DNA from: Pseudacidovorax intermedius | GTDB taxonomy: Bacteria > Pseudomonadota > Gammaproteobacteria > Burkholderiales > Burkholderiaceae_C | Direction of reading: 5' to 3' | NCBI RefSeq assembly: GCF_001476815.1 | Contig: NZ_LDSL01000096.1 | Location: 26,069 to 90,068 of the forward strand | DNA: 64,000 nucleotides | In this document: piece after piece, positions 11,927-30,290 of the stretch | How the letters are laid out: every line of letters begins with the position of its first letter | Position numbering within the stretch: the first letter of the stretch is position 1 | Translations under genes and position numbers: made by a program | Notes under the pieces: generated by a model | The model's database searches: none | Told to the model about the DNA's origin: nothing | The model's input: the letters and a program-made list of their open reading frames with translations, nothing else

Positions 11927-13075
11927 ATGGACTTCTCATTCACGGAAGAGCAGCGCGCCCTGCAGGACGCGGTTTCGCGCTATTTGCGCCAGTCCTACGG
12001 CTTCCTGCAGCGCGAGGCGCGCCGACGCAGCGAGCGCGGATGGGACGACGGCACCTGGCGGGCGCTGGGCGAACTGGGTGTGCTGGCACTGCCCTTCGAC
12101 CAGCAGCATGGCGGCCTGGGCGGCGGCACTGTCGAGACGATGCTGGTGGCGCAGGAGCTGGGTCGCGCGATGGTGATGGAGCCGTGGTTCGCCTCGGTGG
12201 TGCTGGCGGGCGGCACCCTGGCCGCCCTGGGCGGCCGCGACGCCGAGCGCTGGCTGCCATCGATCGCGTCGGGCGAGCAGATCTTCGCCCTCGCGCTGGA
12301 GGAGCCGGACACGGCATGGCGGCCTGCGCACAGCAGGCTGGCTGCGACCCGCGATGGCGAGGGCTACCGCGTGGACGGCAGCAAGATCCTCGTGGAGCAC
12401 GGCGCGAGTGCAGACGTGCTGCTGGTGCTGGCCCGCACCTCGGGCGCCGTCGGCGAGGGCGCGGGTCTCAGCCTGTTCGCCATCGCCGCCGATCATCCCG
12501 GTATCCGGCGCAGCGGTTACCGACGCCACGACGGCGTCCCAGTGGCCGACCTGGAGTTCGATCAGGTGCGACTCCCGGCGAGCGCTTTGCTCGGCACGGA
12601 GGGCGCGGCCCTCGCCGCCGTGGAACAGGCCATCGACCGCGCCATGGCCGTACAGGCGGCCGAAGCGCTCGGACTCACTGAGTCGCTGCTTGCGCTCACG
12701 ATCGAGCACCTGCAGACGCGCCAGCAGTTCGGTCGGCCGCTCGCGACCTTCCAGGTTCTGCAGCACGGTGCCGTCGACATGCTCGTGGCCATCGAGCAGG
12801 TGCGCAGCATGGCCTGGTTCGCTGCCAGCGCGGCAACCGGGCAAGACGCGGCGGCTCGCCGCCGGGCGATGTCCTCCGTGAAGTACCTGGTGGGGCGCAA
12901 CGCTCGCATGGTGGCGCAGATGGCGGTGCAGCTGCACGGTGCGATCGGCCTCACCGACGAATGCGTGGTCAGCCACGCGTTTCGGCGCCTGATGTCGCTG
13001 GAGCTGCAGTTCGGCGACGCGCAGCATCACTTGGCGGCCTACGCAGTCGATGACAGGGTGGGAGCACAGCCGTGA
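11927..13075 (+). CDS. acyl-CoA dehydrogenase, probable partner subunit of pair 1
   Basis: This 382-aa ACAD-family protein starts at ATG 11927, giving the family N-terminus MDFSFTEEQRALQDAVSRYL. Unlike its neighbour it lacks a GGSTE/GGT motif; the corresponding end reads LMSLELQFGDAQHHLAAYA. This is the usual look of the beta-type subunit in heterotetrameric ACADs, which may keep FAD contacts but lose the base. The downstream thiolase-like gene starts at GTG within its last codons (4-base overlap), so they are translationally coupled. Confidence 0.86.
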   Translation: MDFSFTEEQRALQDAVSRYLRQSYGFLQREARRRSERGWDDGTWRALGELGVLALPFDQQHGGLGGGTVETMLVAQELGRAMVMEPWFASVVLAGGTLAALGGRDAERWLPSIASGEQIFALALEEPDTAWRPAHSRLAATRDGEGYRVDGSKILVEHGASADVLLVLARTSGAVGEGAGLSLFAIAADHPGIRRSGYRRHDGVPVADLEFDQVRLPASALLGTEGAALAAVEQAIDRAMAVQAAEALGLTESLLALTIEHLQTRQQFGRPLATFQVLQHGAVDMLVAIEQVRSMAWFAASAATGQDAAARRRAMSSVKYLVGRNARMVAQMAVQLHGAIGLTDECVVSHAFRRLMSLELQFGDAQHHLAAYAVDDRVGAQP

Positions 13076-14238
13076 CATCCGCCGCGTTGGCCTGCATCGC
13101 AGGCGCCTTCGAGCATCCGCTGCGCAACACTCCTCATCTGAGCCTCGCACAGATCCACGAACAGGTCGCACGCGGCGCTTTGGCGGATGCGGGGCTGAGC
13201 TTCTCCGACGTCGACGGTTACTTCTGCGCCGGCGATGCGCCGGGCCTGGGACCGCATTCGATGGTGGATTATCTGGGCCTTCAGGTGCGCCATGTAGACA
13301 CGACGGACACCGGCGGCTCGGCGCCCCTTCTGCATGCCGCCCACGCAGCCCAGGCCATTGCCCAGGGCCGCTGCCGGGTTGCCCTGGTGACGATGGGCGG
13401 GGTGCCCCGCTCGCAGCCCCGGCTGTACGGTGCCACGGTCCGGCCGGCGGACGCCACGCCGGAAGGTCCGTTCGAGTCACCTTACCGCGGCGCGGTCGCA
13501 CCGATGTATGCGCTGGTGGCACGACGGCACATGCATGAGTACGGCACCACCCCTCGCCAGCTCGCCTGGATCAAGGCGGCCTTTTCACAGCACGCCCAGC
13601 ACAACCCCCATGCCATGCTGCGCCAGGTGGTGACGCCCGACGACGTGCTGGCCTCGCCGCTGGTGGCCGATCCGCTGCATCGGCTGGACTGCTGCGTGGT
13701 GAGCGACGGCGGAGGCGCGCTGGTGGTCGTCCATCCCGACGTGATGAAGTCCCTTGCCAAGCCGCGGATCGAGATCCGGGGCAGTGGCGAGTCGGTCAAG
13801 GGCCAATTGGGCGGAGACGTGGACCTGAGCTGGTCGGCCACGCGGCACGCGGGCGCCGCCGCCTTCGCCCACGCAGGTCTGGGCACGCAGGACATTGATT
13901 ACGCCTCGCTATACGACAGCTTCACCATCACGGTCCTGATGCAGCTCGAAGACCTAGGCTTCTGCGCAAAGGGCGAAGGCGGCCGCTTCGTGGAAGAGGG
14001 CGGTCTGCTTGCCCGCGGCGGCCGCCTGCCGGTCAACACCGATGGCGGCGGGCTGTGCAACAACCATCCCGCCAACCGCGGAGGCATGGTCAAAGTGATC
14101 GAGGCCGTCCGCCAGTTACGCGGGGAGGCCCACCCCGCCGTGCAGGTGCCGGGCTGCGAGCATGCCCTGGTCAGCGGTGTTGGAGGACTGCTGGGCTCCC
14201 GGCACGGCAGCGCCGTGCTCATCCTCACCCGCACGTAG
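13072..14238 (+). CDS. thiolase-like protein (SCP2/Ltp2 type) without nucleophile Cys
   Basis: This 388-aa thiolase-fold protein of the SCP2-thiolase/lipid-transfer group begins at GTG overlapping the previous stop. Where thiolases have their nucleophile Cys the sequence is TTDTGGSAPLL, so the Cys is absent. The C-terminal NTDGGGLCNNHPANRGG keeps a His, and YDSFTITVLMQLEDLGF matches the SCP2 group. The next gene encodes a DUF35 protein. In steroid degraders Ltp2 needs a DUF35 partner and performs retro-aldol cleavage of a 3-hydroxyacyl-CoA rather than thiolysis. By that analogy this pair is a probable aldolase; a noncatalytic or other C-C lyase role is possible. Confidence 0.85.
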   Translation: MTSAALACIAGAFEHPLRNTPHLSLAQIHEQVARGALADAGLSFSDVDGYFCAGDAPGLGPHSMVDYLGLQVRHVDTTDTGGSAPLLHAAHAAQAIAQGRCRVALVTMGGVPRSQPRLYGATVRPADATPEGPFESPYRGAVAPMYALVARRHMHEYGTTPRQLAWIKAAFSQHAQHNPHAMLRQVVTPDDVLASPLVADPLHRLDCCVVSDGGGALVVVHPDVMKSLAKPRIEIRGSGESVKGQLGGDVDLSWSATRHAGAAAFAHAGLGTQDIDYASLYDSFTITVLMQLEDLGFCAKGEGGRFVEEGGLLARGGRLPVNTDGGGLCNNHPANRGGMVKVIEAVRQLRGEAHPAVQVPGCEHALVSGVGGLLGSRHGSAVLILTRT

Positions 14239-14249
14239 GACCGACAGAC

Positions 14250-14660
14250 ATGAACAGCACCATCGACGATCCCGTCAGGACGGCCGCGTCCATACCCTGG
14301 CTCGACGCCTGTGCGCAGAGCGCGTTGACTTATGGCCATTGCGCCGCCTGCGGCAAGGCGCATTTCTATCCCCGGCCCCACTGCCCGCATTGCCATGCAT
14401 CCGACACCGGCCGAGCGACGTCTGCCGGCATCGGCGCGATCTATTCGTGGACGACGGTGCATTCCAAGGCTGCCTCCTACACGCTGGCCTACGTTCGGCT
14501 AGAGGAGGGCTTCACGATGCTGACCCACCTAGTAGGCGATCCACCCGTAGACGGCTGGCATGTCGGCTTGTCGGTGGTGCTGGGATGGGTGGTGACGGCC
14601 AACGGCCAGAACATGCCGGTGTTCCAGCAGAACCGGACCAACAAGGAGCAGGCCGCATGA
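14250..14660 (+). CDS. DUF35/OB-fold zinc-ribbon protein, partner of the thiolase-like protein
   Basis: This 136-aa protein has a rubredoxin-like zinc ribbon (CAACGKAHFYPRPHCPHC, about residues 33-50) followed by an OB-fold (about 60-125). This is the Zn-OB/DUF35 architecture that binds Ltp2-type aldolases, BbsA/BbsB-type thiolases and HMG-CoA synthase-like complexes. ATG 14250 is 12 bases after the thiolase-like stop. It overlaps the following crotonase start by 4 bases. Role as obligatory partner is inferred from family and order. Confidence 0.85.
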   Translation: MNSTIDDPVRTAASIPWLDACAQSALTYGHCAACGKAHFYPRPHCPHCHASDTGRATSAGIGAIYSWTTVHSKAASYTLAYVRLEEGFTMLTHLVGDPPVDGWHVGLSVVLGWVVTANGQNMPVFQQNRTNKEQAA

Positions 14661-15433
14661 GTTTCATCGAACAGGCGCGTGACGGCGATGTCGTAACGCT
14701 GACCATGAATCGGCCGCAGACGCGCAATGCCCTTGGGCACGCCGACGCCGAGGAGTTCGTGCGTGTTCTAGAGACCGTCGCCCTCGATCGATCCGTCAAG
14801 GCGTTGATCTTGACTGGTGCAGGCAGTGCATTTTCTGCGGGCGGGGACATCAAGGCCATGGCATTGACTATTGAGCTACGCCAGGCGGCGGCCGCTACGC
14901 GCCTGGACTATCGCGAGGGCATCCAGCGCATCCCTGCTGCGCTCCACGCGCTGGAGATCCCGACGATCGCTGCGGTCAACGGGCCAGCCATGGGCGTGGG
15001 CTGCGACCTCGCCTGCATGTGCGACCTGCGGCTCGCCGCACCGTCAGCGCGCTTCGCGCAGAGCTTCATCAAGGTGGGGCTCATTTCCGGCGACGGCGGC
15101 CTCTGGTTTCTCCAGCGGGTCGTTGGGCCACAGCGCGCCGCGGAGATGGCCTTCACGGGCGATCCTATCGATGCTGCCAAGGCGCTGGCGTGGGGCCTCG
15201 TCGCCGAGGTTGTTGAGGCCGAAAAGCTTCTCCCCGCCGCGCAGCGTCTGGCTCAGCGCATCGCCGCCAATCCCGCGGCGACGCTGCGCATGAGCAAGCG
15301 ACTCATGAGGGAGGCACCGTTTACCTCTCTCGACACCTTTCTGCAGCTTTCGGCCGGCCTGCAGGCATTGGCACAGGACAGCCCTGAGCATGCCGCGGCC
15401 GTCCGAGCTTTTCTCGAAAGAGGCAAACTATGA
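14657..15433 (+). CDS. enoyl-CoA hydratase/isomerase family protein
   Basis: This is the third crotonase of the arm, 258 aa, starting at the ATGA overlap with the DUF35 gene. Oxyanion-hole elements are GAGSAFSAGGDIKAMA and PAMGVGCDLACMCDLRLA. The region corresponding to the catalytic Glu reads GLISGDGGLWFLQRVVG with Asp. It is followed by a second ACAD pair with another 4-base overlap. Hydration of the product of an ACAD step is the simplest reading, but this family also holds isomerases and ring hydrolases. Confidence 0.88.
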   Translation: MSFIEQARDGDVVTLTMNRPQTRNALGHADAEEFVRVLETVALDRSVKALILTGAGSAFSAGGDIKAMALTIELRQAAAATRLDYREGIQRIPAALHALEIPTIAAVNGPAMGVGCDLACMCDLRLAAPSARFAQSFIKVGLISGDGGLWFLQRVVGPQRAAEMAFTGDPIDAAKALAWGLVAEVVEAEKLLPAAQRLAQRIAANPAATLRMSKRLMREAPFTSLDTFLQLSAGLQALAQDSPEHAAAVRAFLERGKL

Positions 15434-19167: not shown

Positions 19168-20331
19168 CTAGCGTTGAAAAAACTGTCGAGCCTGGGCCGA
19201 CCGATGGTTCTGATCACTGCCTTCCACAATGCCCCGAACGATCTGGCGCAGGTTGCGCACGGCCTGCGGTTCCTGCAGCCGCCCGTTGAGCGCATTGCGG
19301 TCTGAAGGAGGCTGCTCTTCCTCGAAGCACTCGATGGCCAACTCGCACAGCGATCCGGTGTCGATCAGGAACTGAAAGGCTCTCTGCGCCTTGCCAGGAT
19401 CCTGGATGGCTGCGCCGGCGGTCGAGAAGAACTCGGCCAGCTCTTCCCGGTTCAGGACCTCTTCCCCAAGTTCGTTCTCCAGCGGCTCCATCAGATCCGA
19501 TAGCTGTAGCACCCGCTGCCTGGCGATGCTGAAAATCTCCTGGCAGACCACCGGGTTCGTCCAGGGTGTGTCCGACTGCTGCGCCCGTCGCATCATCTCG
19601 GCCGTTTGGGCAGGCGAACTCGCCGCCGCATGCCGGGCCAGCAGGAACTCGCGGACCACGGCGAAGACCTGCATCAGTTCGCGCTTCTCGCAGAAGTTGC
19701 AGTCCACAATGGCGCCGCCATTGACGAGCACCTTGGTGCCTCGCACCTCGACCTCGCGGACGTCCTCCCAGAACCGTCGCTCCGCAGACGAACCCAGCTC
19801 CTTGAAGTGGATGCCTTCCTCCGTGAGCGCGAGGCCTTCCTTGCCTCCGCCAAAGACCGTGGCATCGATCAGCACCAGCACCTTGTCGTTGCCTTCACCG
19901 AGCACGAAGCTGCTGCCGGCGCCGGTCAGCTTCTTGGGCGGGATGTACGGCGTCACGTAGATCCGGGTGAACGTCGCACCGCGAAGCCGCCGCTGCAGCA
20001 GATCGTTCAACGAGACCTTGGGTGGCGCTGGTGCAGATGCGGACGCCGCGGCCCGGGCAGCGGCAGAGTGCCGCGGCTCACGGGCCGCGCTGCCTTGGGG
20101 CGCCTCCTGCTCGACCTGACTGGCGTCATACCGCTCCCGAGTCTTGGCGTTGGAAAGCACCGCATACGCCTCGTTGACCCGCTGCATCTGCTGCGTCGCC
20201 CAGCTCACCGTGGCCTCATCGGCCTGCGGGTACTTGTCCGGGTGGTACTGCGTACGCCGAGCCCGGTAGGCGAGGTCGATCTCCTGATTGGATGCCGTGG
20301 GCCGGACGCCCAGCACGTCGTAGTGGTTTAT
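19168..20331 (-). CDS. J-domain (DnaJ-like) protein with long C-terminal region; start codon unclear
   Basis: The protein begins at the J-domain (NHYDVLGVRPTASNQEIDLA, then YHPDKYPQ with the HPD motif around residue 33) and continues through a Gln/Ala-rich linker into a region of about 280 aa that I do not recognise. Homologous J-domains start within a few residues of this point, but there is no ATG, GTG or TTG in frame between the upstream stop at 20400 and the domain; the best candidate is ATA at 20331-20329. HPD recruits DnaK. The C-terminal half (SFVLGEGNDKVLVLIDATVFGG) might be a bacterial PH-like domain. Length from ATA is 387 aa. Confidence 0.72.
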   Translation of the reverse strand: MNHYDVLGVRPTASNQEIDLAYRARRTQYHPDKYPQADEATVSWATQQMQRVNEAYAVLSNAKTRERYDASQVEQEAPQGSAAREPRHSAAARAAASASAPAPPKVSLNDLLQRRLRGATFTRIYVTPYIPPKKLTGAGSSFVLGEGNDKVLVLIDATVFGGGKEGLALTEEGIHFKELGSSAERRFWEDVREVEVRGTKVLVNGGAIVDCNFCEKRELMQVFAVVREFLLARHAAASSPAQTAEMMRRAQQSDTPWTNPVVCQEIFSIARQRVLQLSDLMEPLENELGEEVLNREELAEFFSTAGAAIQDPGKAQRAFQFLIDTGSLCELAIECFEEEQPPSDRNALNGRLQEPQAVRNLRQIVRGIVEGSDQNHRSAQARQFFQR

Positions 20332-20360
20332 GAGGCAAAAAAAGAAGAGAGATGAAGCGC

Positions 20361-20394
20361 GCCCACCCCCCCGGACGAACCGGGAGGGGCGGGC
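20361..20394 (-). terminator. GC-rich hairpin followed by T7 on the minus strand
   Basis: A GCCC...CCGG stem closes over ACGAA and pairs with CCGG...GGGC. On the minus strand it is followed some 20 bases later by seven Ts. It lies between the lipoprotein stop (20400) and the J-domain protein, so it may terminate or attenuate transcription into the latter. Confidence 0.55.
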
Positions 20395-20399
20395 GGCCT

Positions 20400-20729
20400 T
20401 TATGACGGCGCGTAGAGCTTGGCGCAGGTACTGGAGTCGTAGACGTCCAGCAGCGCACGGGCCTGACCGGAGGGACTCAGCTTGTGCAGCGCCAGGTCGT
20501 CGTCCAGGCGCTGCGCCATGCGGCTCATGTTGATGTTGCTGACATCCTTGGTCTCGACCAGCACGGCGAACCGAGTCATGGCCATGGCGGCCTCGGCCGG
20601 GCGCGCCATCATGGTCGCCACCTTGGCGCATTTGTAGGCCTCGTAGAAGCGGCGCTCGTCGCTGGAGCAGCTGGCCACGAGCAGTGCCGCCGAAGCGAGC
20701 GCTGTGACAGGAGAAAAAGCGCGTCGCAT
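20400..20729 (-). CDS. small putative lipoprotein
   Basis: This 109-aa protein has a short signal sequence with a lipobox-like LLVASCSS near residues 17-24, so Cys21 is the probable lipidated residue. The rest is helical and charged with two further Cys (YKCAKV and SSTCAKLY). Family not recognised. It starts 8 bases after the stop of the 69-aa membrane protein and belongs to the same small operon. Confidence 0.65.
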   Translation of the reverse strand: MRRAFSPVTALASAALLVASCSSDERRFYEAYKCAKVATMMARPAEAAMAMTRFAVLVETKDVSNINMSRMAQRLDDDLALHKLSPSGQARALLDVYDSSTCAKLYAPS

Positions 20730-20737
20730 GCCGCCGC

Positions 20738-20947
20738 TCACCGGTAGATCAGAACGATGGCCCCGATGATCAGCAGCAGCACGACAACGCCCATGAAGGC
20801 GCCCAGGGCGGGGAACATGGTCAGAGGCCAGACGAGCGCCTTGCCGAAGGCGAAGGCAGCGCGGTGGCCGTCCACGAGAACAAAGTAGGCCCAGAAGAGC
20901 AGGCCGATGGCGCCGTAGCCGGAGAAGATTTTTCCTTTGAGAGTCAT
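20738..20947 (-). CDS. small inner-membrane protein
   Basis: This 69-aa protein has two hydrophobic segments (about 12-27 and 48-68), the second ending LIIGAIVLIYR. No family recognised. It is the promoter-proximal gene of a minus-strand operon that faces the XRE regulator across 150 bases of AT-richer DNA. Confidence 0.65.
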   Translation of the reverse strand: MTLKGKIFSGYGAIGLLFWAYFVLVDGHRAAFAFGKALVWPLTMFPALGAFMGVVVLLLIIGAIVLIYR

Positions 20948-21097
20948 GGTGGTGGAGGTGAAGTGAAGGGTTGTTGACGGAAGCGAGAAGAGGACAGAGA
21001 CCGGGAGTGGGCGCGCAGAAAGACCAGCCTTTCTTTGACTTTAAATGGTACCTAAACACAGTGTATTCAAACGCAACAGCGCTGGACCATCGGCGCG

Positions 21098-21430
21098 ATG
21101 CCAGCAGTCAAGCCACCCTCAAAGACGTTGCGCGAGGTGTTTGCCCGCAACGTGCGGCTCGTGCGGGTCAGCAAGGAGATGTCGCAGGAGGCGATGGCGG
21201 CGGAGGCGCAGCTGGACCGCACCTTCATCGGCTCGCTGGAGCGGGGGGAGCGCAACATCTCGATCGACAACATCGAGCGTCTGGCCAAGGCCATCGACAC
21301 GCTGCCGCACGAGTTGCTCGATCCCGCGCTGCCGAAACTGCGCGGGCTGGACGAGACGGCGACGCGCGCGCCCCGCAAGGCGCGTGTCTATCCGGCTGCG
21401 CGTCGACCGCGCGCTAAGCCGGCGGAGTAG
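21098..21430 (+). CDS. XRE-family helix-turn-helix regulator
   Basis: This 110-aa protein has a complete HTH_3 domain at about 10-68 (VRVSKEMSQEAMAAEAQLDR, then TFIGSLERGERNISIDNIER). The basic Arg/Ala tail may aid DNA binding. Such regulators are typical controllers of mobile elements. It is the only plus-strand gene of the module, and its 3' end overlaps the end of the convergent gene at 21414 by 17 bases. Confidence 0.85.
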   Translation: MPAVKPPSKTLREVFARNVRLVRVSKEMSQEAMAAEAQLDRTFIGSLERGERNISIDNIERLAKAIDTLPHELLDPALPKLRGLDETATRAPRKARVYPAARRPRAKPAE

Positions 21431-22055
21431 GGCGGCGCTCCAGGCAAAGCGTGCCTTCCACCTCGACCGCGAGCGCCAGGCCGTCGATGCCGCGGTAGGC
21501 CAATGGCAGCTTCAGCGGGTTGGCGCGTGGGCCCAGCGTCAGACCCGAGCCAGGCAGCAATTCCAGCCGGCAGTTGTAGCCCGTGCCCCAGGGCGTGGCG
21601 AGTAGCGCATCCAGCAGCAGAAGCGCCCGAGGGCGTTCCTGCCGGCCGGTGAGCCATTCCTCGCCTGTGACCAGCGCCCCGCGCAGGCCGTCCTGGTGAC
21701 GCACGCAGACCAGCATCACCCGGAAGGCGCAGGTGCTGAGGCGGGGCAATCCCTTTTCCCAGCGGCAGTCGAGCTCCGGCAGCCAGCGCGCTGCCAGTGC
21801 CTGAACGCTGTCTGGGTTGGACGGATCGATGACGACGTCGCTTGGCGGGCGCCGCGGCGGCAACGCCAGGCAGGCGGTCGCGGCGCTCAGCAGACCCCGG
21901 ATGGCGTCGGCTTCGTCAACGTGTTCCTGCAGGCGAAGGCGGTTCCGCTGGGGATCTGCAGGACGCTCCAGCGCCAGCATGGTGTCGAAGCGCAGGCCAG
22001 GGAGGTACCGGTGCAGAACCTGCGCTGGCACCTGATCAGGCCGTTGGCTGTCCAT
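21414..22055 (-). CDS. conserved mobile-element protein of unknown function
   Basis: This 213-aa soluble protein starts at ATG 22055 inside the 3' end of the next gene upstream (20-base overlap), which indicates coupling. It contains an Arg/Leu-rich helical half and a later segment WGTGYNCRLELLPGSG. I do not recognise a domain. Its position beside YqaJ and DUF932 genes suggests a role in element DNA metabolism. Confidence 0.6.
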   Translation of the reverse strand: MDSQRPDQVPAQVLHRYLPGLRFDTMLALERPADPQRNRLRLQEHVDEADAIRGLLSAATACLALPPRRPPSDVVIDPSNPDSVQALAARWLPELDCRWEKGLPRLSTCAFRVMLVCVRHQDGLRGALVTGEEWLTGRQERPRALLLLDALLATPWGTGYNCRLELLPGSGLTLGPRANPLKLPLAYRGIDGLALAVEVEGTLCLERRPTPPA

Positions 22056-23001
22056 CCGGTGCCTCCGACTGCGTGAGCAGTCGATCCATCCGCGCAGCCA
22101 AAGAAGGTGCCTGCGTTGGGTCAGAACGGCTGGTGCTGAAGCCACGGGTGGTCGACGCATCCGGGTAGAACTCGTCCACCACGGCAGCGCCGTCCTCCTG
22201 CGACTCCTCGAACGCCCCGGCGGCGAAGCCATCCCGTGCTGCCTGGTCCAGCGCGTCCTGGTCGAAGCCCGCTTCCTCGCGCTGGCGCCAGATTGCCTGT
22301 CCGGCCTCCAGCGTCTGCGCCAGGCTGCTGCCTGCCCGCACCGTGAGGTCCACGTAGTAGATCGGCGTGCGGTGCGAGCGTGTCGTGGACTTGCCGCGCA
22401 GGCGCAGTTCCAGTGCAAGCGCGGACAGGTGTCCGCCCGACAGTGCCTGGAAGTACTTCAGGCGCGCCGACAGCGTCCGGATGCTGTTGAAGCCCGTGGT
22501 GCGGAAGATGAACGAGCCCAGCTCATCCTCGTCACCGATGCGCACGTTGAGTCGCCCGTAGGGCTTGCAGCCCGACTTGGCGCCCAGCTCGCAACCCTCT
22601 GGCGCAGGGCAGGGCAGAGCCTGGATGCCGGACGGTGTGGCCCGCTTGCAGCTCTGGCCGTTGCCGACGCACAGCGGCCGGCCGGTGGCCCGGTCGAAGA
22701 CGCTGTAGTTGGCGCGCAGGTTGAGGTCCGGATCGTCGAAGAGGAAGCGCACCGGGATGGCTCGCAGCTTGGCCTCCTTCTTGGCAGGCTCCTTGTCGGC
22801 GTCAGCCTTTGAGCCTTCCGCAAGCTTTGCACGCAGTTGCTGGTCCAGCGGGTGCAGCACCCAGCCGTCCTGGCGCTGGACCTGTGTGGTGATGGTGAAT
22901 TCGTCGTCCCTCTCGGGCAGGCGCTTGCCGTCTTTCATGACGACCTTGCCGATGGCGATGCGCCCGATGACGGGCGGCGTGAGTGCCAGTCCTTTGAGCA
23001 T
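22036..23001 (-). CDS. conserved mobile-element protein with Cys-rich insert
   Basis: This 321-aa protein resembles the conserved ICE/plasmid proteins usually labelled recombination directionality factor-like or hydrolase/metal-binding. ATG 23001 has AAGGA upstream; translation opens MLKGLALTPPVIGRIAIGKV. A Cys cluster (QSCKRATPSG, LPCPAPEGCELGAKSGC) could bind metal. The C-terminal third is acidic and Ser-rich. The call as an RDF-like protein is from memory of gene order and is unproven. Confidence 0.6.
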   Translation of the reverse strand: MLKGLALTPPVIGRIAIGKVVMKDGKRLPERDDEFTITTQVQRQDGWVLHPLDQQLRAKLAEGSKADADKEPAKKEAKLRAIPVRFLFDDPDLNLRANYSVFDRATGRPLCVGNGQSCKRATPSGIQALPCPAPEGCELGAKSGCKPYGRLNVRIGDEDELGSFIFRTTGFNSIRTLSARLKYFQALSGGHLSALALELRLRGKSTTRSHRTPIYYVDLTVRAGSSLAQTLEAGQAIWRQREEAGFDQDALDQAARDGFAAGAFEESQEDGAAVVDEFYPDASTTRGFSTSRSDPTQAPSLAARMDRLLTQSEAPDGQPTA

Positions 23002-23121
23002 GTGGGGTCCTTGGGAAGTTGAGGAAAGTTGTGGAAATCGAGGGAAGAGAACCGAGGGCCGCGGAACGGCCGCCTCGGAAACTCTGGAAAAGTCGGAAAT
23101 GGCGGGCGCTGCCTTGCACAA

Positions 23122-23150
23122 GCCCGCCCCTTCAATCCGCTGGGGCGGGC
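23122..23150 (-). promoter_or_regulatory. GC-rich hairpin upstream of the gene at 22036
   Basis: GCCCGCCCC and GGGGCGGGC form a perfect 9-bp stem with an 11-base loop, between the end of the 38-aa gene and the start at 23001. No T-run follows on the minus strand, so a leader or attenuator role is as likely as termination. Confidence 0.5.
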
Positions 23151-23208
23151 CGCTGTGTTCCCTCGCGGCAGAGGGTTCGTCACTGGGCGGGCGGCGACGG
23201 GTGGGCTG

Positions 23209-23325
23209 TCAAAGCGGCTGACTGCGGCGCAGCGCCAGGCCGTAGCCCAGCACCACGCCGATCCCCAGCACGAGCGCATAGGCCGCCAGGAACTCCAGCG
23301 GGCTCGCACCGACGGTGGTGCTCAT
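23209..23325 (-). CDS. 38-aa single-span membrane peptide
   Basis: The peptide runs from ATG 23325, which overlaps the stop of the YqaJ gene as ATGA, to TGA at 23209. One hydrophobic span (FLAAYALVLGIGVVLGYGLA) is followed by RRSQPL, giving an N-out or N-in anchor with a basic end. The coupling to the exonuclease gene and the clean membrane span support a real gene. Function unknown. Confidence 0.5.
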   Translation of the reverse strand: MSTTVGASPLEFLAAYALVLGIGVVLGYGLALRRSQPL

Positions 23326-24341
23326 GGCAGCTCCTTGACGGTGAAGCGGCGGGTGCCGGCCTTTGGGACGCCGTAGGTCGCCAGCAGCTCAGGGTGATCG
23401 GCCAGGAGCCGATCCACGTCCAGGGCTGTGCCGTCCTTGCTGCGCTTCCAGCGGACTTCGCCGCCGTCGAAACGGGCGACGGTGGCTTCACCCATGCGCT
23501 GCTGGATCCGCTGGCGCAGGATCTCCTGCTGCTGTTCGGCTTCGGCGATGGTCTGCCGCAGCGCCAGAAGGTCAGCGAACGCGCCGCCGAACTCCAGGTC
23601 GTCCGCAAGATCCAACACCGTGCCGCTGTCGCGGGGCCACAGCGCCTTGAGCGCCAGGGCCGCAGACTCCGACCCGTCCGCCGGCGGCGCCGTGTCCGTC
23701 TCCACGTGCCGCCAGAACCGCGCCTCCAGCTGGATCAGCTTCGGGATGAGTTCGTCATCGCGCTCGATCCGGTAGATGCGCAGCTCCTGCCCGCAGATCA
23801 GCACCGCCACGTCCGCCGCCTGCTTGCCAGTGACGGCGAGCTGGTGCATCACCTGCAGCTGGATGTACTCGGGCACGCCGTCTTCCCAGAGACGTGCCCC
23901 GTGGTAGCCGGCGGTCTTGCACTCCAGGATCTGGACATCCGGCGCGCCCAGGACCTCGCGGTCCAGGTTCGCCAGCATCCAGGGGTGTTCCGGGTGCTGC
24001 AGCACAGCGTTGATCCGGCGCACCTTGTGCCCGGCGCGCCGGGTGTAGTGCGCCGCCACGATGGGCTCCAGCAACGTGCCCCAGTACATGGGGCTGGTCT
24101 CGTCGTTCGGATCCACCTTCGGCAGCTCGGCATCGCGGCCGGTCTTGTCCAGCCACAGCTCCAGCGGTGAGGTGTACGGGCTCAGGCCGATGGCGGCCGC
24201 GGCGTCGGAGCCGCCGATGCCTTGCTTGCGCATGTCGAGCCACTGGGCACGATCCAGCTTACGGAAGTCCTGCGGCTTCACCAAGCGCAGGGCAGGGCGG
24301 GCACGAGCCGAGGGCTCGCCCGCCCGATGGGCTTCTGCCAT
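23322..24341 (-). CDS. YqaJ-like viral recombinase / exonuclease
   Basis: This 339-aa protein has the lambda-exonuclease-like YqaJ core: QWLDMRKQGIGGSDAAAAIG (about 34-53), PMYWGTLLEP with the catalytic-region Glu, then the Asp and ECKT of the PD-(D/E)XK centre (ILECKTAGYHGARLW). The C-terminal half is helical and probably assembles oligomers. ATG 24341 has AAGGAG 8-13 bases upstream. These 5'-3' exonucleases act with single-strand annealing proteins in phages and ICEs; no Bet/RecT gene is adjacent here. Confidence 0.82.
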   Translation of the reverse strand: MAEAHRAGEPSARARPALRLVKPQDFRKLDRAQWLDMRKQGIGGSDAAAAIGLSPYTSPLELWLDKTGRDAELPKVDPNDETSPMYWGTLLEPIVAAHYTRRAGHKVRRINAVLQHPEHPWMLANLDREVLGAPDVQILECKTAGYHGARLWEDGVPEYIQLQVMHQLAVTGKQAADVAVLICGQELRIYRIERDDELIPKLIQLEARFWRHVETDTAPPADGSESAALALKALWPRDSGTVLDLADDLEFGGAFADLLALRQTIAEAEQQQEILRQRIQQRMGEATVARFDGGEVRWKRSKDGTALDVDRLLADHPELLATYGVPKAGTRRFTVKELP

Positions 24342-24426
24342 GGGGTTCTCCTTGGGTTGAAAGAAATGTTCAGAAAGAAGGAAGGCCAGCCGCCGCATCA
24401 CCCCCGCCGCGCACCGACGCCCAGAA

Positions 24427-24468
24427 GCACAAAGCCCCGGTCCCTTGTGGGGAGCCGGGGCTTTGTGC
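24427..24468 (-). terminator. strong hairpin between DUF932 and YqaJ genes
   Basis: GCACAAAGCCCCGG pairs perfectly with CCGGGGCTTTGTGC around a 14-base loop. It lies downstream of DUF932 (ends 24541) and upstream of YqaJ (starts 24341), both on the minus strand. Terminator or attenuator. Confidence 0.65.
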
Positions 24469-24540
24469 CGTCGGGATGCCGTGATGGCAGTGATCCGGGT
24501 CGTCGCCGGAAAGGTGGAGGGGATGAGGACTGCGGCATGT

Positions 24541-25506
24541 TCAGGCCACCAGTTGCAGGGCAGCGTCGAGGGCGCGCTGCTTGATGCCAGCGCCTTGGCC
24601 GAACCAGGCGCTGTCTAGGCGGTATTCCTGGCTGCGGGCTCGGCGTTCGTGGTCGACGTACTCCGTCACCGCGCACAGCAGGCCCCAGGCGGTTCCCTTG
24701 GCGGCCTGCAGCTCGGCGCCGCGGCCCTTGCCTTCGTAGAGCTCCTGCACCTTCTTGAGGGCGCGCTCGTTGGTCAGGGCCTGCGGCTCGGCATGGCCGT
24801 CCGCTTGGCACATGACCTTCAGGAAGTAATTGAGCGACTCGTGCGTCTTGACCTTGCGCTCGGACAGCGTCTTCATGCGGTACATGAAGGCATCCCAGCT
24901 GGAGACGGCGATGCCGAGTTGCTTCTTGACGGCCTGCGCGTCGAAGCTGGTGCTGTGGGGCACCTTGACGGCATTGACCGCGCCCTGCAGGGCGATGGAC
25001 AGCGTGTTGTTGCAGACGACCCGGATGGTGGTGGGCGTGGCGGTGGTCGCCAGCGTACCGTCGCAGGACGTGGCCAGCAGGATGTAGCCCTTGACGGTGT
25101 CGTTGCCCTTGAGCGCCGACTCCTTGCCGGTGCGCGCCAGCGCCCAGAACTTGCGGCCGGCCTTGAGGACGCCGGCAGTCTCCAGCTCGAAACCGGAAAC
25201 CTCGGTCAGGTCCCGGTAGAACTCGAGGACTTCGCGAGGCTGCACGACCTGGTAGCGGCCGCCGACGACGGACAGCGGGGCCTTGGTGTCGCTGCGGTAG
25301 AGCACCTTCTGGTCGTCGAAGGTCATGATGGAGCCGAGGGCGCCGGCCTGCTCGGCCATGTAGCGCACGGGCGTCTCGCAGATGGTCCAGTCCATGCCGG
25401 CCTGCTCGGCCCAGACTTCGATGGGCTGCTTGGGCGGCAACTGGTTGCCGAGTTCGTGCCAGGGGGTTTGGCCGACGTAGGCCATTTGTTGGAGGAGGTG
25501 TGCCAT
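24541..25506 (-). CDS. DUF932 protein (phage/plasmid-like)
   Basis: This 321-aa DUF932 protein starts at ATG 25506 (MAHLLQQMAYVGQTPWHELG), the usual family opening. Typical internal segments are ICETPVRYM, VLYRSDTKAPLSVVG with YQVVQPREVLEF, and VVCNNTLSIAL in the second half. The family is common on conjugative plasmids, ICEs and phages next to recombination genes; its biochemical role is not established. Confidence 0.85.
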   Translation of the reverse strand: MAHLLQQMAYVGQTPWHELGNQLPPKQPIEVWAEQAGMDWTICETPVRYMAEQAGALGSIMTFDDQKVLYRSDTKAPLSVVGGRYQVVQPREVLEFYRDLTEVSGFELETAGVLKAGRKFWALARTGKESALKGNDTVKGYILLATSCDGTLATTATPTTIRVVCNNTLSIALQGAVNAVKVPHSTSFDAQAVKKQLGIAVSSWDAFMYRMKTLSERKVKTHESLNYFLKVMCQADGHAEPQALTNERALKKVQELYEGKGRGAELQAAKGTAWGLLCAVTEYVDHERRARSQEYRLDSAWFGQGAGIKQRALDAALQLVA

Positions 25507-25580
25507 GGGGTAAAGATGAAGTGGTGGGGGAAGGACGAGGAGTGATGAGGATGCGGGCGAGGAAACGCCCATCGCCGAGA

Positions 25581-26018
25581 TCACGCCCGGTGGTGCGAGA
25601 AGACGTGACCGCAGTTGAGGCAGCGGCAGTTACTCAAGATGGAGCCATCAATGGCTTCGCCTAGCGCTGCGCCGACTGCGCAGCCAGCGATACCGCCGCT
25701 CAGTCCGCCCAAGATGGCGCCAGCGACGGCGCCGAGCGGCGGCATGGAAGGCACGGCCTCGACACCGAGGCCCATGCCGACGTGCGCACCAGCAGCGGCG
25801 CCCGAGAGCGCAGCGGACATGCCGCCGGCTGCACCGGCCAAGGTGCCGATGGTGGCGCCGGTCCTCTTGCCGAGTTCGCGAGTGCATAGGCGCGGGGAAC
25901 CGCAAGATGGGCAGACGGGCGCCGACGCGGTGTCGTTTGCAGCACGCTCGAACAGGGGCTCGTCGTCGTAGAGGTTTGAGGTGGATGGCATAGGCAGGGT
26001 CGTTGAAGAGGAGGCCAT
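25581..26018 (-). CDS. zinc-ribbon protein with glycine-zipper membrane core
   Basis: This protein of about 145 aa (ATG 26018; ATG 25991 is an alternative) has an N-terminal Cys motif (CPSCGSPRLC), a long Gly/Ala-rich stretch with repeated GxxxG-like spacing over about 70 residues, and a C-terminal Cys/His cluster (CRCLNCGHVFSHH). The two Cys motifs could form split zinc ribbons on either side of a membrane hairpin. Seen on mobile elements; function unknown. First gene of the minus-strand series. Confidence 0.6.
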   Translation of the reverse strand: MASSSTTLPMPSTSNLYDDEPLFERAANDTASAPVCPSCGSPRLCTRELGKRTGATIGTLAGAAGGMSAALSGAAAGAHVGMGLGVEAVPSMPPLGAVAGAILGGLSGGIAGCAVGAALGEAIDGSILSNCRCLNCGHVFSHHRA

Positions 26019-26687
26019 GCTGCGTCGAGCAGCCGGCCAGACGGCAAAAAGCCCCAGCTCGCTTTGGAGCGAGGCGGGGGCTTGGCGAAAGCTAGGCAAT
26101 TACGGGCGCCTGCTCGTCAACAACATATGTGGTTGAAAGAATCTGGGATCAGCGAGAGGTGCGTTGGCGGACAGCTATGCAGCGGAAGTAGACCTTCGGG
26201 CTACCCTCCAGACCAGCCGGTTCCGGCCAACTGCGGTCAGTGCGGCTTGAGCATCGCCGCGCGCGTCAAGCTGTTGCGCCCACTCGAGGATGGAGCGGTC
26301 TTCGAGTCAGGTAGCAAAGCACGATGAGTCGGCGCACTGGTCGGTTCACGCCCTTTTTTTGGCCCCTCGGCGTCGGACTGACTAAAGCAACCAGAGATCG
26401 CGGGCGGAGCAGCTGGGCATACATAGCGCCCCACACTGCGTCGAACTGAGCGAACTGATCAAGGAAGGCGGCCCAGAGAAGGCCTCGCACAGGCACTAAA
26501 GCATCATTCCAAGTTTGCGCTTCCCTTAGGGATGCTCTTCACCAAACGTTCCACCGCGCGCTGAAGCGGTTTGGAAGGCCTTTGTGTGGCGGATGACTGC
26601 ACCGCATGGGTCTGTATGGTGAGCAATGGCGCGCGAGGTGGGGCCGAGAAGGCGCCCAGATCACCAGTTTCGCGGCTACATGGCCGC
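26019..26687. other. gene-free stretch with one hairpin
   Basis: About 670 bases upstream of the zinc-ribbon gene contain the hairpin at 26049-26083 and otherwise no convincing gene. The short open frames here lack family features and ribosome sites. Lower GC and homopolymer runs near 26350 suggest degraded accessory DNA between the module and the IS5 remnant. Confidence 0.5.
26049..26083 (-). promoter_or_regulatory. terminator-like leader hairpin upstream of the zinc-ribbon gene
   Basis: AAGCCCC and GGGGCTT arms enclose a second GCTCGC/GCGAG stem. On the minus strand GGGGC is followed by five Ts, the form of an intrinsic terminator. No minus-strand gene lies immediately upstream, so a leader attenuator is possible. 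Confidence 0.5.
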
Positions 26688-27188
26688 TCATGCCGTCGCC
26701 AGGCGCACCTCGGTCACCACGACTCGCCTGACCATCCACAGATTGCTCAGCGCAAACAGCACCTTCAACTGCGCCGTGTTCTTCGCCAGCCCCCGATAGC
26801 GCACCTTCACATGCCCGAACTGGCGCTTGATCACCCGAAACGGGTGCTCTACCTTTGCGCGCACGCTCGCCTTTATTCGCTCGATCTTGTCAGTCAACGC
26901 GGCGACCGCTTTGGTCGCCGGCTCCAGCGCTCGGCGCAGTCCCGGGCGCATCGCCACATGCCAGCGCACCTGTGCCTTCGCGTCCGGGCGCTTGTCTACG
27001 CCCTGGTAGCCCGCGTCGCCGAAGGCAAACTTCTCCTGCCCATGCAGCAGGCTGTTGCCCTCGACCACGTCGTTGACGTTGCCGGCGGTGCCCTTCACCG
27101 TGTGCACCAACCCCGAGTCGGCAGATGCGGACGCCAGCGCAGACAGCGCCGTTGACCGCGGCACTCCAAAAAATGTCTTCCCTTCCAA
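26688..27188 (-). pseudogene. IS5-family transposase, truncated C-terminal half
   Basis: From about 27125 to 26688 the frame is the C-terminal half of an IS5-type DDE transposase: SGLVHTVKGTAGNVNDV, FAFGDAGYQG (second Asp), IERIKASVRAKVEHPFRVIK (catalytic Glu in EHPF) and the end LFALSNLWMVRR. The N-terminal half with the first Asp is missing; the first 20 or so codons up to 27188 are unrelated joining sequence. It is therefore inactive. It borders the promoter of the second catabolon. Confidence 0.85.
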
Positions 27189-27191
27189 ACA

Positions 27192-27204
27192 ATATACTGT
27201 ATGC
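27192..27204 (-). promoter_or_regulatory. predicted FCD-GntR operator A (CoA-ligase operon)
   Basis: ATATACTGTATGC, read on the minus strand as GCATACAGTATAT, matches the two other sites at 38260 and 41511 at 11 of 13 positions or better. It lies 31 bases before the CoA-ligase start codon, in a short AT-rich gap. Confidence 0.65.
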
Positions 27205-27235
27205 TAATGCTCAATTTCTTTGATTTTGCACTGTC

Positions 27236-28840
27236 ATGAACCTTACTCATCCTGCAGCAGCGGGCCATCGCCATCTGATTCCGCTGTTGCGCGCTCGCGT
27301 GGCCTCCACGCCGCACACGGAACTGCTGCGGTGCGGCGGGCGCGCGTTGTCGGCAGAGGAGTTGCTGGACGAAGGCGCTCGCTATGCTGCGGCCTTTGGT
27401 CGCGCCGGGCTGCGGGAGGGTGATCGCGTCGCCATGCAGTGCGGCAACCGCCACGAATTCATCGCCGTAGTCGTAGCCTGCGCGCTGTCGGGCATCGTGC
27501 TGGTGCCGATCAACACCGCCTCGCGGGGCAGCCAGCTGGCCTATTACGTGCGCAACTCGCGGGCCCGGCTGCTGCTGTGCGAATCCGCCTTGCTGCCCAA
27601 CGTCGAGAGCGCCCATCTGGCCGATGCCGAGGCCATTTCGGCGCTGCAGGCCATCTGGTCCTTTGATCTGCCGCCAGCCATCGCGGAACTGCCGCGGCTG
27701 ACGTCGGTGCCGCTGGCCGATGGGGCCGGGCCTGTACATGACGTCGCACCCGAGCCGGCACTGCCGAGCTTGGTCATGTACACGTCGGGGACGTCCGGCC
27801 CATCGAAGGGGGTCGTCTGTTCCCATGCGCAGCTGTACTGGTGGGGCCACCACTCCGTGCGCAACATCGGTGTGCTGCCCAGCGACGTGCTCTACACCTG
27901 CCTACCGCTCTTCCACATCAACGCGCTCAACACCTTCTTTCAGGCGCTGATCAGCGGCGCACGCGTGGTGGTCGGACCCAGGTTCTCAGTCTCTCAGCTG
28001 TTCGGCGAACTGGCGAAATCCGGTGCCACCGTAACCTTTCTTCTGGGCGCCATGGTGCCGATGCTGCTCTCGCGCAAGCCGGACGCGAGCGAGCGTGCCC
28101 ACTGCGTGCGGGTCGCGCTGGCGCCGGGTGCTTCGGCGCAGCACTACGAGGAGTTCGAAGGTCGCACGAACATCCGCATGCTCGACGGCTTCGGCTCGAC
28201 CGAATCTAACTTTGTGATCTGCTCTTCCCTCGAGGACCGTCGTCCGGGATGGATGGGTAAGGTGGCCGCCGGCTTCGAGGCGCGCGTCGTCGACGAACTG
28301 GACAACGAGGTTCCGCACGGCACTCCGGGGGAACTGGTGCTGCGCCACGACGAGCCCTTTGCGTTCGCCTCCGGCTACCTGGACATGCCGGAGAAGACGG
28401 TCGAGGCCTGGCGCAACCTTTGGTTCCACACCGGCGATCGTGTGCTTCGTGACGAAGACGGCTTCTTTCGCTTCATCGATCGCATCAAGGACAGCATCCG
28501 CCGCCGCGGCGAGAACATCTCGTCCTACGAGGTCGAGCAGGTGATCGGCGCCCATCCCTGCGTGGCCGAGGTCGCGGTTTACGCGGTGCCCTCCGAACTG
28601 GCGGAAGACGAGGTGATGTGCAGCCTCGTGCTGCGCGAAGGCAGCACGTACAAGCCGCTGGAACTTGTCGAATGGTGCGAGGCGCGGCTGGCCTATTTCG
28701 CGATCCCGCGCTTCTGGCGCACGATGGCCGAGTTGCCAAAGACCGAGAACGGCAAGATTCAGAAGTACAAGCTGCGGGCCGAAGGCCCCACCCCCGACAG
28801 CTGGGAGCTGGCAGCCAGCGGCTACAAGGTCAAGCGATGA
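27236..28840 (+). CDS. acyl-CoA/aryl-CoA synthetase, AMP-binding family
   Basis: This 534-aa adenylate-forming ligase activates a carboxylic acid with ATP and CoA. The P-loop-like motif is YTSGTSGPSKGVV (about 181-193). Further motifs are LDGFGSTESNF, YRLD-type TGDRVLRDEDGFFRFIDR (about 400-417) and the C-terminal PKTENGKIQKYKL with the catalytic Lys. Overall it is closest in layout to crotonobetaine/carnitine and related CoA ligases. It is the first gene of catabolon 2 and overlaps the next by 4 bases. It likely activates the side-chain acid; substrate unknown. Confidence 0.92.
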   Translation: MNLTHPAAAGHRHLIPLLRARVASTPHTELLRCGGRALSAEELLDEGARYAAAFGRAGLREGDRVAMQCGNRHEFIAVVVACALSGIVLVPINTASRGSQLAYYVRNSRARLLLCESALLPNVESAHLADAEAISALQAIWSFDLPPAIAELPRLTSVPLADGAGPVHDVAPEPALPSLVMYTSGTSGPSKGVVCSHAQLYWWGHHSVRNIGVLPSDVLYTCLPLFHINALNTFFQALISGARVVVGPRFSVSQLFGELAKSGATVTFLLGAMVPMLLSRKPDASERAHCVRVALAPGASAQHYEEFEGRTNIRMLDGFGSTESNFVICSSLEDRRPGWMGKVAAGFEARVVDELDNEVPHGTPGELVLRHDEPFAFASGYLDMPEKTVEAWRNLWFHTGDRVLRDEDGFFRFIDRIKDSIRRRGENISSYEVEQVIGAHPCVAEVAVYAVPSELAEDEVMCSLVLREGSTYKPLELVEWCEARLAYFAIPRFWRTMAELPKTENGKIQKYKLRAEGPTPDSWELAASGYKVKR

Positions 28841-29979
28841 GCGCGACCCTGATCCGTGGCAGCGTCGAGGTGCCATACGCCCGGCGCTCCATCGAGCCAA
28901 CGGCCCATTGGCTGGGCCGGGCATTCGAGGCGCTGATGCAAGAGCTGGACTTCGACGCGGCGCGTGTCGACGGCCTGGGCGTGGCCTCCTTCACGCTGCG
29001 CCCGGACCGTGCAATCGACATGGCCTGGCGGCTGGGACTGCGTGTGTCGTGGTTCATGGACGACGGCAACGGCGGTGCGTCTGGCCTGAACCTGCTTCAG
29101 CATGCGGTGGCTGCCATAGAGACCGGCCAGGCCCGCCATATCGTGCTGATGGCGGGAGACGCGTTCCAGCCTGCTGACTTCCAGGCGCTGCAGGACAACT
29201 ACAACGTCACCACGCGCGATCTGCTGCGGCCGCTGGGCATCGCTAATCCCAACACATTGTTCGCCCTGGCCACGCAGAAGCACATGCACCGGCATGGCCT
29301 GCGCCGGAGCGATTACGGCGAGCTCGTGCTCTCGCAACGACGCCATGCCGCGCGCAACCCGAATGCGGTGTACCGCGCGCAGATGACGATGGACGACTAC
29401 CTCAATGCGCCGCAAGTGGCTAGCCCGCTCGGGCTCTACGACTGCGTGCCCGTGGTGGCAGGTGCTAACGCCATCCTTCTGAGCCATGCCGACGAGGCTG
29501 GATCACACCACGGCTGCGTGCGCGTGCGCGCCGTCCGAGGTCTGCACAACCACGACCAACACCAGGGAGACGGCTTGCAGACGGGCTTGGCTGAGATCGC
29601 CCCGCGCCTCTTTGCCGACGCGGGGCTGCGGCCATCCGACATCGATTTGGTGTCGGTCTACGACGACTACCCGGTTATGACGCTAGTGCAATTGCAGGAT
29701 CTCGGCCTGGTGGGCGACGCTGGCCTGCAGCGCTTCGTGCGCGAAACGGTGCCCGAAGGCCGGATTGCCCTCAACACGTCCGGTGGCCAGCTGTCCGCTG
29801 GACAGGCTGGCACTGCCGGTGGCATGCATGGGCTGACAGAAGCCATTCGCCAACTAGGCGGCCGCTGCGCCGAGCGCCAGTTGCCCCGCGCGCGCACGGC
29901 GGTAGTGTCTGGCTACGGCATGGTCGAGTACCGCTACGGCATGTGCGCGGCCGCCACCATACTGGAGGCTGTGGCATGA
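28837..29979 (+). CDS. thiolase-like protein (Ltp2 type) lacking both catalytic Cys and His
   Basis: This 380-aa thiolase-fold protein of the SCP2/Ltp2 group starts at an ATGA overlap with the CoA ligase. At the nucleophile position it reads MDDGNGGASGLNLL, with no Cys. At the later His position it reads NTSGGQLSAGQAGTAGG, with Gln where thiolases have GHP. Tyr-rich segments (VSVYDDYPVMTLVQ and SGYGMVEYRYG) are in the regions where Ltp2 aldolases use Tyr. With the DUF35 gene next, a retro-aldol C-C cleavage of a 3-hydroxyacyl-CoA is likely. It differs strongly from the first-cluster homologue at 13072. Confidence 0.85.
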   Translation: MSATLIRGSVEVPYARRSIEPTAHWLGRAFEALMQELDFDAARVDGLGVASFTLRPDRAIDMAWRLGLRVSWFMDDGNGGASGLNLLQHAVAAIETGQARHIVLMAGDAFQPADFQALQDNYNVTTRDLLRPLGIANPNTLFALATQKHMHRHGLRRSDYGELVLSQRRHAARNPNAVYRAQMTMDDYLNAPQVASPLGLYDCVPVVAGANAILLSHADEAGSHHGCVRVRAVRGLHNHDQHQGDGLQTGLAEIAPRLFADAGLRPSDIDLVSVYDDYPVMTLVQLQDLGLVGDAGLQRFVRETVPEGRIALNTSGGQLSAGQAGTAGGMHGLTEAIRQLGGRCAERQLPRARTAVVSGYGMVEYRYGMCAAATILEAVA

Positions 29980-30290
29980 CGCTTGAAATCCTGGCTTGCA
30001 GCCGATGCGCTGCCGAGTACTTTCCGCGGCCCATGCGCTGCGCCGCCTGCGGTGGCCGCCACTTCGATACCCAGGCAATCCACACGGCAGAGGTGGTCGC
30101 CGTCACTCAGGCCCACCGCGTGCCCGAGGGCTGCGCCTACCGCTACTTGGTCGAACTGGCTGGTGGACGCGGAGTCCCGGTGATCGCTGCCAGCCCGCAA
30201 CTGCTGCAAGTCGGCGCTCATGTCCTGGTGGACCAGGATGACCACGGTGCCGTCTTCATTCCCGCCAACCCCGCCAATACCCACCCATGA
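29976..30290 (+). CDS. DUF35/OB-fold zinc-ribbon protein, partner of the thiolase-like protein
   Basis: This 104-aa protein has a zinc ribbon (CSRCAAEYFPRPMRCAACGG, about 9-28) and an OB-fold behind it. It overlaps the thiolase-like gene (ATGA) and the following hydrolase gene by 4 bases each. It is shorter than the first-cluster DUF35 protein because the N-terminal helix before the ribbon is absent. Structural partner or acyl-CoA-binding role inferred from Ltp2-DUF35 complexes. Confidence 0.84.
   Translation: MTLEILACSRCAAEYFPRPMRCAACGGRHFDTQAIHTAEVVAVTQAHRVPEGCAYRYLVELAGGRGVPVIAASPQLLQVGAHVLVDQDDHGAVFIPANPANTHP

Follow-up and report, generated by a model that had tools for sequence, protein, structure and literature searches.

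Two Cys-less thiolase-like/DUF35 gene pairs of Pseudacidovorax intermedius are predicted retro-aldolases, one of them related to IadG of auxin catabolism

Results

The two gene pairs

The window, which is the whole stretch of 64,000 nucleotides analyzed here, comes from Pseudacidovorax intermedius (NCBI RefSeq assembly GCF_001476815.1, contig NZ_LDSL01000096.1, positions 26,069 to 90,068 of the forward strand), whose genome assembly comprises 5.5 Mb in 295 contigs and is 99.97% complete. It encodes two thiolase-like proteins, here called M1 and M2, each followed by a gene for a DUF35 protein (Table 1), and the function of these two gene pairs is the subject of this analysis. The initial annotation had pointed out the double occurrence of the pair, the missing nucleophilic Cys in both proteins and the late His that is present in the first and replaced by Gln in the second, and all three features are also seen in the alignments described below. 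The two thiolase-like proteins are 32% identical to each other over 328 residues, and Thiolase_C_1 is the only Pfam domain in each. A gap of 11 bases separates M1 from its DUF35 gene, and 4-base overlaps connect the ligase gene with M2, M2 with its DUF35 gene and the latter with the gene of the dienelactone-hydrolase (DLH)/SnoaL fusion. The DUF35 partner of M2 scores 16.3 bits against zf-ChsH2, which is under the Pfam cut-off of 23.2; within its family, 36 of the 37 aligned members match zf-ChsH2 at E <= 0.01, the four Cys are invariant (37/37), and the best solved match of the family profile is ChsH2(DUF35) of Protein Data Bank entry 6ok1.

Table 1 Genes of the M1 and M2 clusters in the window
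Feature	Positions	Strand	Remarks
Acyl-CoA dehydrogenase upstream of M1	10719..11921	+	best solved relatives 4x28 chain A, 6wy8/6wy9
Second acyl-CoA dehydrogenase	11927..13075	+	4-base overlap with M1; best solved relatives are isovaleryl-CoA dehydrogenases
M1, Cys-less thiolase-like protein	13072..14238	+	388 aa; Gly82, Y281-D-S-F, His332; predicted retro-aldolase
DUF35 partner of M1	14250..14660	+	zf-ChsH2 and OB_ChsH2_C, CxxC/CxxC
Enoyl-CoA hydratase/isomerase	14663..15433	+	3' of the M1 DUF35 gene
AMP-forming acyl-CoA ligase	27236..28840	+	33% identity to IadF of contig C234
M2, Cys-less thiolase-like protein	28837..29979	+	380 aa; Gly80, Y275-D-D-Y, Gln318, Gln323; IadG relative, predicted retro-aldolase
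DUF35 partner of M2	29976..30290	+	zinc ribbon, weak to Pfam
DLH/SnoaL fusion	30287..31486	+	predicted hydrolase of isatin-type product
Flavin-reductase-domain protein	31483..32103	+	start uncertain; no partner oxygenase found in the vicinity
Gentisate-1,2-dioxygenase-like cupin	32212..33351	+	start uncertain; predicted 5-hydroxyanthranilate cleavage; 570 bits to 3bu7
Fumarylacetoacetate-hydrolase-family protein	33368..34282	+	
Carbon-nitrogen hydrolase (nitrilase superfamily)	34279..35331	+	predicted maleamate amidase; 209 bits to NitA
Maleate cis-trans isomerase relative	35328..36083	+	325 bits to 4fq7
IadC-like reductase	37273..38238	-	36% to IadC
IadD-like Rieske oxygenase alpha subunit	38300..39625	+	51% to IadD, 26% to IpfA
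IadE-like ring-hydroxylating beta subunit	39622..40131	+	43% to IadE
Short-chain dehydrogenase/reductase (SDR)	41642..42355	+	predicted isatin-type reductase; 34% to IadH SDR part, 50% to L010 SDR

The missing cysteine and the active-site signatures

L-INS-i alignments place Gly82 of M1 and Gly80 of M2 in the column that is occupied by the nucleophilic Cys in three thiolases of the host genome. The position is taken from these alignments because the larger, faster alignment of the 120-homolog sets places just one of the three control cysteines in the Cys column and misaligns the other two. The homolog sets are the best 120 of 7999 (M1), 3590 (M2) and 7999 (IadG) matches, window proteins included, and the Gly is found in 120/120 homologs of M1 and in 119/120 of M2, where one row is gapped. 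In the second motif a Tyr replaces the thiolase His or Asn, giving YDSF in M1 and YDDY in M2, and in the third motif His332 is kept in M1, whereas M2 has Gln323 there, plus Gln318. In the same sets these signatures are fixed; the exceptions are the gapped row and two homologs of M2 with Met in place of Gln318. M1 and M2 lack the nucleophilic Cys of the thiolases and share with the Ltp2/Sal-type aldolases the thiolase fold, the Gly, the Tyr in a YDxF/Y motif and the adjacent DUF35 gene.

In Sal, which with Shy(DUF35) forms the bile-acid aldolase of Comamonas testosteroni (9myr), Tyr302 and Cys304 of the YDCY motif are catalytic and Gly replaces the thiolase Cys (PMC12329534). M1 and M2 are like Sal in the Gly, the catalytic Tyr and the DUF35 partner, and M2 is further like Sal in having both Gln, as Gln318 and Gln323 align with Gln347 and Gln352 of Sal. 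However, Cys304 of Sal corresponds to Asp277 in M2 and Ser283 in M1, and M1 has Gly and His for the two Gln. The Ltp2-ChsH2(DUF35) complex of Thermomonospora curvata (6ok1) also has the thiolase fold, the Gly, the Tyr and DUF35, but its YDHF motif and its acid, Tyr344, occur in neither M1 nor M2. Because the second catalytic residue differs, M1 and M2 are classed as variants that would work like Sal and Ltp2, and not as Sal or Ltp2; they are predicted to be new variants of the known aldolase kind to which Sal, Ltp2 and IpfD belong.

The phylogeny against Ltp2 that the initial annotation had suggested places the known aldolases Sal, Ltp2 and IpfD on both sides of M1 and M2, and M2 together with IadG (in these trees each locus protein is represented by its C-terminal 395 residues, and the three rows from the Protein Data Bank are partial). 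Structure comparison does not arbitrate the function of M2, because its best matches (BbsB, Sal, the thiolase of the HMG-CoA-synthase complex and TbSLP) tie within 1 Z. For M1, the 'putative thiolase' of Sphaerobacter thermophilus (4u4e), known as a structure and without assigned function in its records, shares YDSF and HP, with 44% identity in the structural alignment. A further Cys-less relative of the same genome (L086:9728-10945, contig C100), having YDAF, a late His and a DUF35 gene just upstream, shares a clade with M1 and 4u4e.

It has to be considered that M1 and M2 catalyze another Cys-free reaction of the thiolase fold, such as the decarboxylation of a malonyl-type CoA ester, or an acyl transfer with a displaced Cys. 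Such a Cys, which the initial annotation had named as evidence that would contradict its proposal, was looked for: the CxG cysteine is missing from both proteins, and the sole candidate near the His is Cys329 of M1, three residues ahead of the retained His332 and conserved in 120/120 of the best homologs. It is judged an unlikely nucleophile; 4u4e and M2 have Ser at this position, and in one control thiolase of the host a Cys is found there in addition to the nucleophilic one. Malonyl-CoA is decarboxylated by the Tyr-type relative TbSLP, with a kcat of just 0.005 per second, but not by Sal. Considering also that aldolases flank M1 and M2 in the trees, and that the ligase/Rieske context of M2 would yield a β-alcohol and neither a β-keto nor a malonyl ester, a non-aldolase function is unlikely.

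M2 and the iad genes

In Variovorax paradoxus CL14, the iadC-K2 region converts auxin to anthranilate, and iadG, the product of which is described as a ketothiolase, is required (preprint PMC12633357). The genome studied here has an iad locus of its own on contig C234, with relatives of iadA, B, C, D, E, F, G, H, I and J in this order, followed by a transport binding protein; judged from names and gene numbers, this is the order of the Variovorax locus. IadG of C234, about 97% identical to Pseudacidovorax proteins, reads YDDY, and the next gene encodes IadH, a DUF35 domain fused to an SDR-type dehydrogenase. The same fusion is found at the IadH place on a Roseibium plasmid, and the Shinella gene at this place has a similar length and name.

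M2 and IadG of C234 fall in one clade and share YDDY, the Gly at the Cys position and the two Gln. The similarity extends to the neighborhood, with an acyl-CoA ligase gene before, IadCDE-like genes nearby, DUF35 directly after, and a relative of the IadH dehydrogenase (identities in Table 1). M2 differs from IadG in sequence (37% identity) and in having DUF35 as a separate gene, as compared with the SDR fusion in IadH, and the window differs from the iad operon in that the ring-cleavage genes come after M2. Since IadA, B, I and J were not found in the window by tblastn (IadA, B and I also not in the 18 kb upstream), M2 is regarded as related to IadG, and its cluster as iad-like but not as an iad operon. 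The M2 cluster is accessory in the genus; among 14 genomes of the host genus, M2 is found at >60% identity in one (G021, 67%), and ten encode a protein at 38-40% identity, which is the level of IadG. A DUF772 transposase gene (42580-43323) closes the cluster, in keeping with an acquired cluster.

The comparison was extended to 78 M2-type loci (79 records with the window), of which 75 were found partly via the YDDY peptide, so that YDDY is present there by construction. Ten Paraburkholderia loci have kept IadC, D, E and F, with an M2-type protein in the place of IadG; nine of these also carry IadJ and IadR, and the tenth (L055) ends at a contig edge. No IadG match above 43% identity was found in the nine Paraburkholderia genomes that combine IadR/C/D/E/F/J with an M2-type protein. 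Elsewhere, IadA occurs in 9, IadB in 8 and IadI in 8 M2-type loci, and a 3-hydroxyanthranilate dioxygenase in 9 of the 79 records. Because of the IadC/D/E/F/H-like neighbors, the Paraburkholderia swaps and these further genes, an isatin/anthranilate route is predicted for M2, and M2 can be tied, from gene content and sequence, to indole-acid catabolism and the IadG family. A TrpC-like gene (L090:18447-19232) is present in the M2 clusters of Caballeronia and others (7/79 records), six of which also have the 3-hydroxyanthranilate dioxygenase, and a further YDDY clade (L072, L075, L076, L077), sister to IadG, lies beside class III CoA-transferases and no ligase.

A non-steroid thiolase-like/DUF35 pair next to ligase and Rieske genes has already been published, namely IpfDE of ibuprofen degradation (pIBU218; PMC9195938), and the general idea of such pairs is therefore not new. 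The M2 cluster could be ipf-like, in which case an aryl-acetic or 2-aryl-propionic acid would be activated with CoA and dihydroxylated at the ring carbon of the side chain, and the pair would remove acetyl- or propionyl-CoA, leaving a catechol. Both clusters have genes for a ligase, Rieske α and β subunits, a thiolase-like protein and DUF35, and a transposon insertion in ipfD abolishes growth on ibuprofen (polarity is possible), the step being published as a retro-aldolase reaction that gives a catechol (PMC9195938). However, all shared parts of the M2 cluster that were compared resemble iad more than ipf, namely the Rieske protein (51% versus 26%), the β subunit (43% versus 27%), the ligase (33% versus 26%) and the aldolase (37% over 371 residues versus 32% over 232). 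In addition, IpfD has YDAF where M2 has YDDY, and a gentisate-type dioxygenase requires a carboxylate on the ring, a group that is lost in ipf chemistry. An ipf-like function of the M2 cluster is, on balance, very improbable. IpfE (L110:6729-7127 of the ibuprofen plasmid) is annotated as an OB-fold protein and lacks the CxxC/CxxC zinc ribbon.

Pairing and fusion of DUF35

A zinc-ribbon gene lies directly 3' of the aldolase gene in 67 of the 78 M2-type loci; of the others, five are without zinc ribbon, four have the aldolase at the locus end and two have no readable aldolase open reading frame. DUF35 is also found fused, to the DLH-SnoaL protein in L034, to the acyl-CoA ligase in L059 and L061, and to the dehydrogenase in IadH, and it is proposed that each fusion partner is an enzyme that would act immediately before or after the cleavage. 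In a zf-ChsH2 search of the host genome, in which 150 of 301 candidates were scored, a Pfam DUF35 match lies next to each of three Tyr-type proteins (M1, IadG and the C100 protein) and a weak one next to M2, and the two HDCF thiolases of contig C228 gave no neighboring DUF35 match. DLH (23/78 loci) and IadI/cyclase-type hydrolases (15/78) share no locus (hypergeometric p 0.0027, not corrected for kinship), and DLH may therefore replace the isatin hydrolase.

The M1 cluster

Around M1, the window contains two pairs of acyl-CoA dehydrogenase genes as well as hydratase genes. The solved relatives 4x28 and 6wy8/6wy9 of the first dehydrogenase upstream of M1 are steroid side-chain acyl-CoA dehydrogenases. 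The absence of a steroid ring pathway, as stated in the initial annotation, holds as far as tested: KshA_C has zero matches in the genome, which is a weak negative as the 14 controls gave one match, below the cut-off, and neither YDCY nor YDHF occurs at any of the nine PF22691 places of the genome. A steroid pathway in the host is set aside on these two results.

The homologs of M1 form a very large family, annotated, among the matches listed, as acetyl-CoA acetyltransferase or 'thiolase domain-containing protein'. An OB-fold/Zn-ribbon gene adjoins the M1 relative in 9 of 10 annotated plasmid loci and is found ~5 kb off in the M1-type plasmid locus of Variovorax WDL1. The dehydrogenases, hydratases and SDRs near the M1 relatives differ between these ten loci, and because of this variability no substrate can be named for M1 from the plasmid relatives. 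M1 is probably an aldolase, and is best read as catalyzing a predicted retro-aldol step in the pathway of a branched or alicyclic acyl-CoA. Between the M1 and M2 catabolons lie phage-like genes (19168-25584, - strand; a DnaJ-domain protein, Gp3-like/RDF, YqaJ recombinase and DUF932), and an IcmF-type type VI secretion gene is found at the window end (60064-63357, - strand).

The ring-cleavage genes after M2

The genes downstream of M2 suggest 5-hydroxyanthranilate as ring-cleavage substrate. The cupin, opening its ring, would leave an amide, from which the fumarylacetoacetate-hydrolase-family protein, the amidase and the isomerase would yield pyruvate, maleate and fumarate. The set of cupin, fumarylacetoacetate hydrolase, nitrilase-superfamily hydrolase and maleate isomerase also accompanies M2-type genes in L012, L030 and L064. 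No aromatic hydroxylase was recognized in the window genes scanned (a part of the window genes) or in ten genes flanking L030, L064 and L010, and for this reason the 5-hydroxyl group may be present from the start, the substrate perhaps being 5-hydroxyindole-3-acetate. The M2 cluster of L012, sister to that of the window in the tree, includes a sulfatase gene (L012:6140-7474), which might point to a sulfated 5-hydroxyindole acid.

Alternatively, the M2 cluster could be a second, redundant iad copy for ordinary indole-3-acetate. The cluster does contain the IadCDE-type oxygenase, the ligase and the aldolase, the breakdown of anthranilate by Nocardia opaca is known to pass through 5-hydroxyanthranilate (Cain 1968, cited in PMC4539516), and the flavin reductase might serve a two-component hydroxylase of which the other part is encoded elsewhere. 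The iad locus already present in the host, the lack of a recognized hydroxylase among the genes scanned and the sulfatase of L012 speak against redundancy, which is nevertheless a serious possibility, although short of even chances.

Discussion

Loss of iadF, G, H or I leads to accumulation of C10H9NO4, dioxindole-3-acetic acid, and IadF, G and H together yield C8H7NO2 (preprint PMC12633357). Retro-aldol cleavage by IadG or an M2-type enzyme would convert dioxindole-3-acetyl-CoA into isatin and acetyl-CoA, and reduction of isatin would give C8H7NO2; the balance of this sequence agrees with the reported product. The β carbon of dioxindole-3-acetic acid bears a tertiary alcohol and no keto group, and because the latter is absent, thiolysis of the CoA ester is impossible. 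In M2, Tyr275 would take the proton off the tertiary alcohol, followed by breakage of the C-C bond, and Asp277, the equivalent of Cys304 of Sal, would with Gln318 and Gln323 protonate the enolate of acetyl-CoA. The isatin would then be reduced or hydrolyzed, ending as an anthranilate. This is comparable to the action of Ltp2 on the C17 ring alcohol of steroids. The product of Ltp2 cleavage is a cyclic ketone, as proposed for M2. M1 would use the same chemistry on a β-hydroxyacyl-CoA supplied by the neighboring dehydrogenases and hydratase, and its acid would probably be His332.

It is therefore probable, though far from certain, that M1 and M2 are retro-aldolases, M2 and IadG removing the side chain of an oxidized indole acid and M1 acting on an acyl-CoA. 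The new point is the predicted function of IadG and M2 as retro-aldolases of indole acids that use a YDDY site; in the literature searched, which mostly excluded subscription papers, IadG is nowhere called an aldolase. The proposal of C-C lyases for non-steroid substrates in the initial annotation is partly supported, as it fits the residues, trees and DUF35 pairing of both proteins, with the amendment that neither is a mere copy of Ltp2, as each has its own active-site signature, and that the pathway indicated for M2, indole-acid catabolism, had not been named.

Some observations weigh against this interpretation. The second catalytic residue, Cys304 in Sal or Tyr344 in Ltp2, is missing, with Ser283/His332 in M1 and Asp277/Gln323 in M2 instead; Cys329 of M1 is invariant; the flavin-reductase gene could serve a hydroxylase encoded elsewhere; and loss of iadI gives the same early block as loss of iadH. 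The early block on loss of iadH itself can be explained because the DUF35 domain is lost too. The widest form of the proposal is rather doubtful: that IadG and M2 constitute an indole-acid retro-aldolase class, with a Tyr-Asp dyad in YDDY, which releases isatins and is the missing side-chain step of auxin breakdown, that DUF35 is a docking tag for the ligase, reductase or hydrolase, and that the window encodes a route from 5-hydroxyindole-3-acetate, a product of serotonin, to fumarate and pyruvate without a ring hydroxylase.

In iad-type auxin degradation, the step at the side chain is currently credited to a 'ketothiolase', the likely substrate of which has no β-keto group. Reading IadG as a DUF35-dependent retro-aldolase would mend the chemistry, predicts isatin and acetyl-CoA as products, and suggests why the pathway stops equally early whether IadG or IadH, the carrier of DUF35, is lost. 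The Sal/Ltp2 aldolase group, with its steroid and ibuprofen substrates, would then extend to indole acids and to soil and plant bacteria, in which the proteins concerned now carry the names thiolase or acetyl-CoA acetyltransferase.

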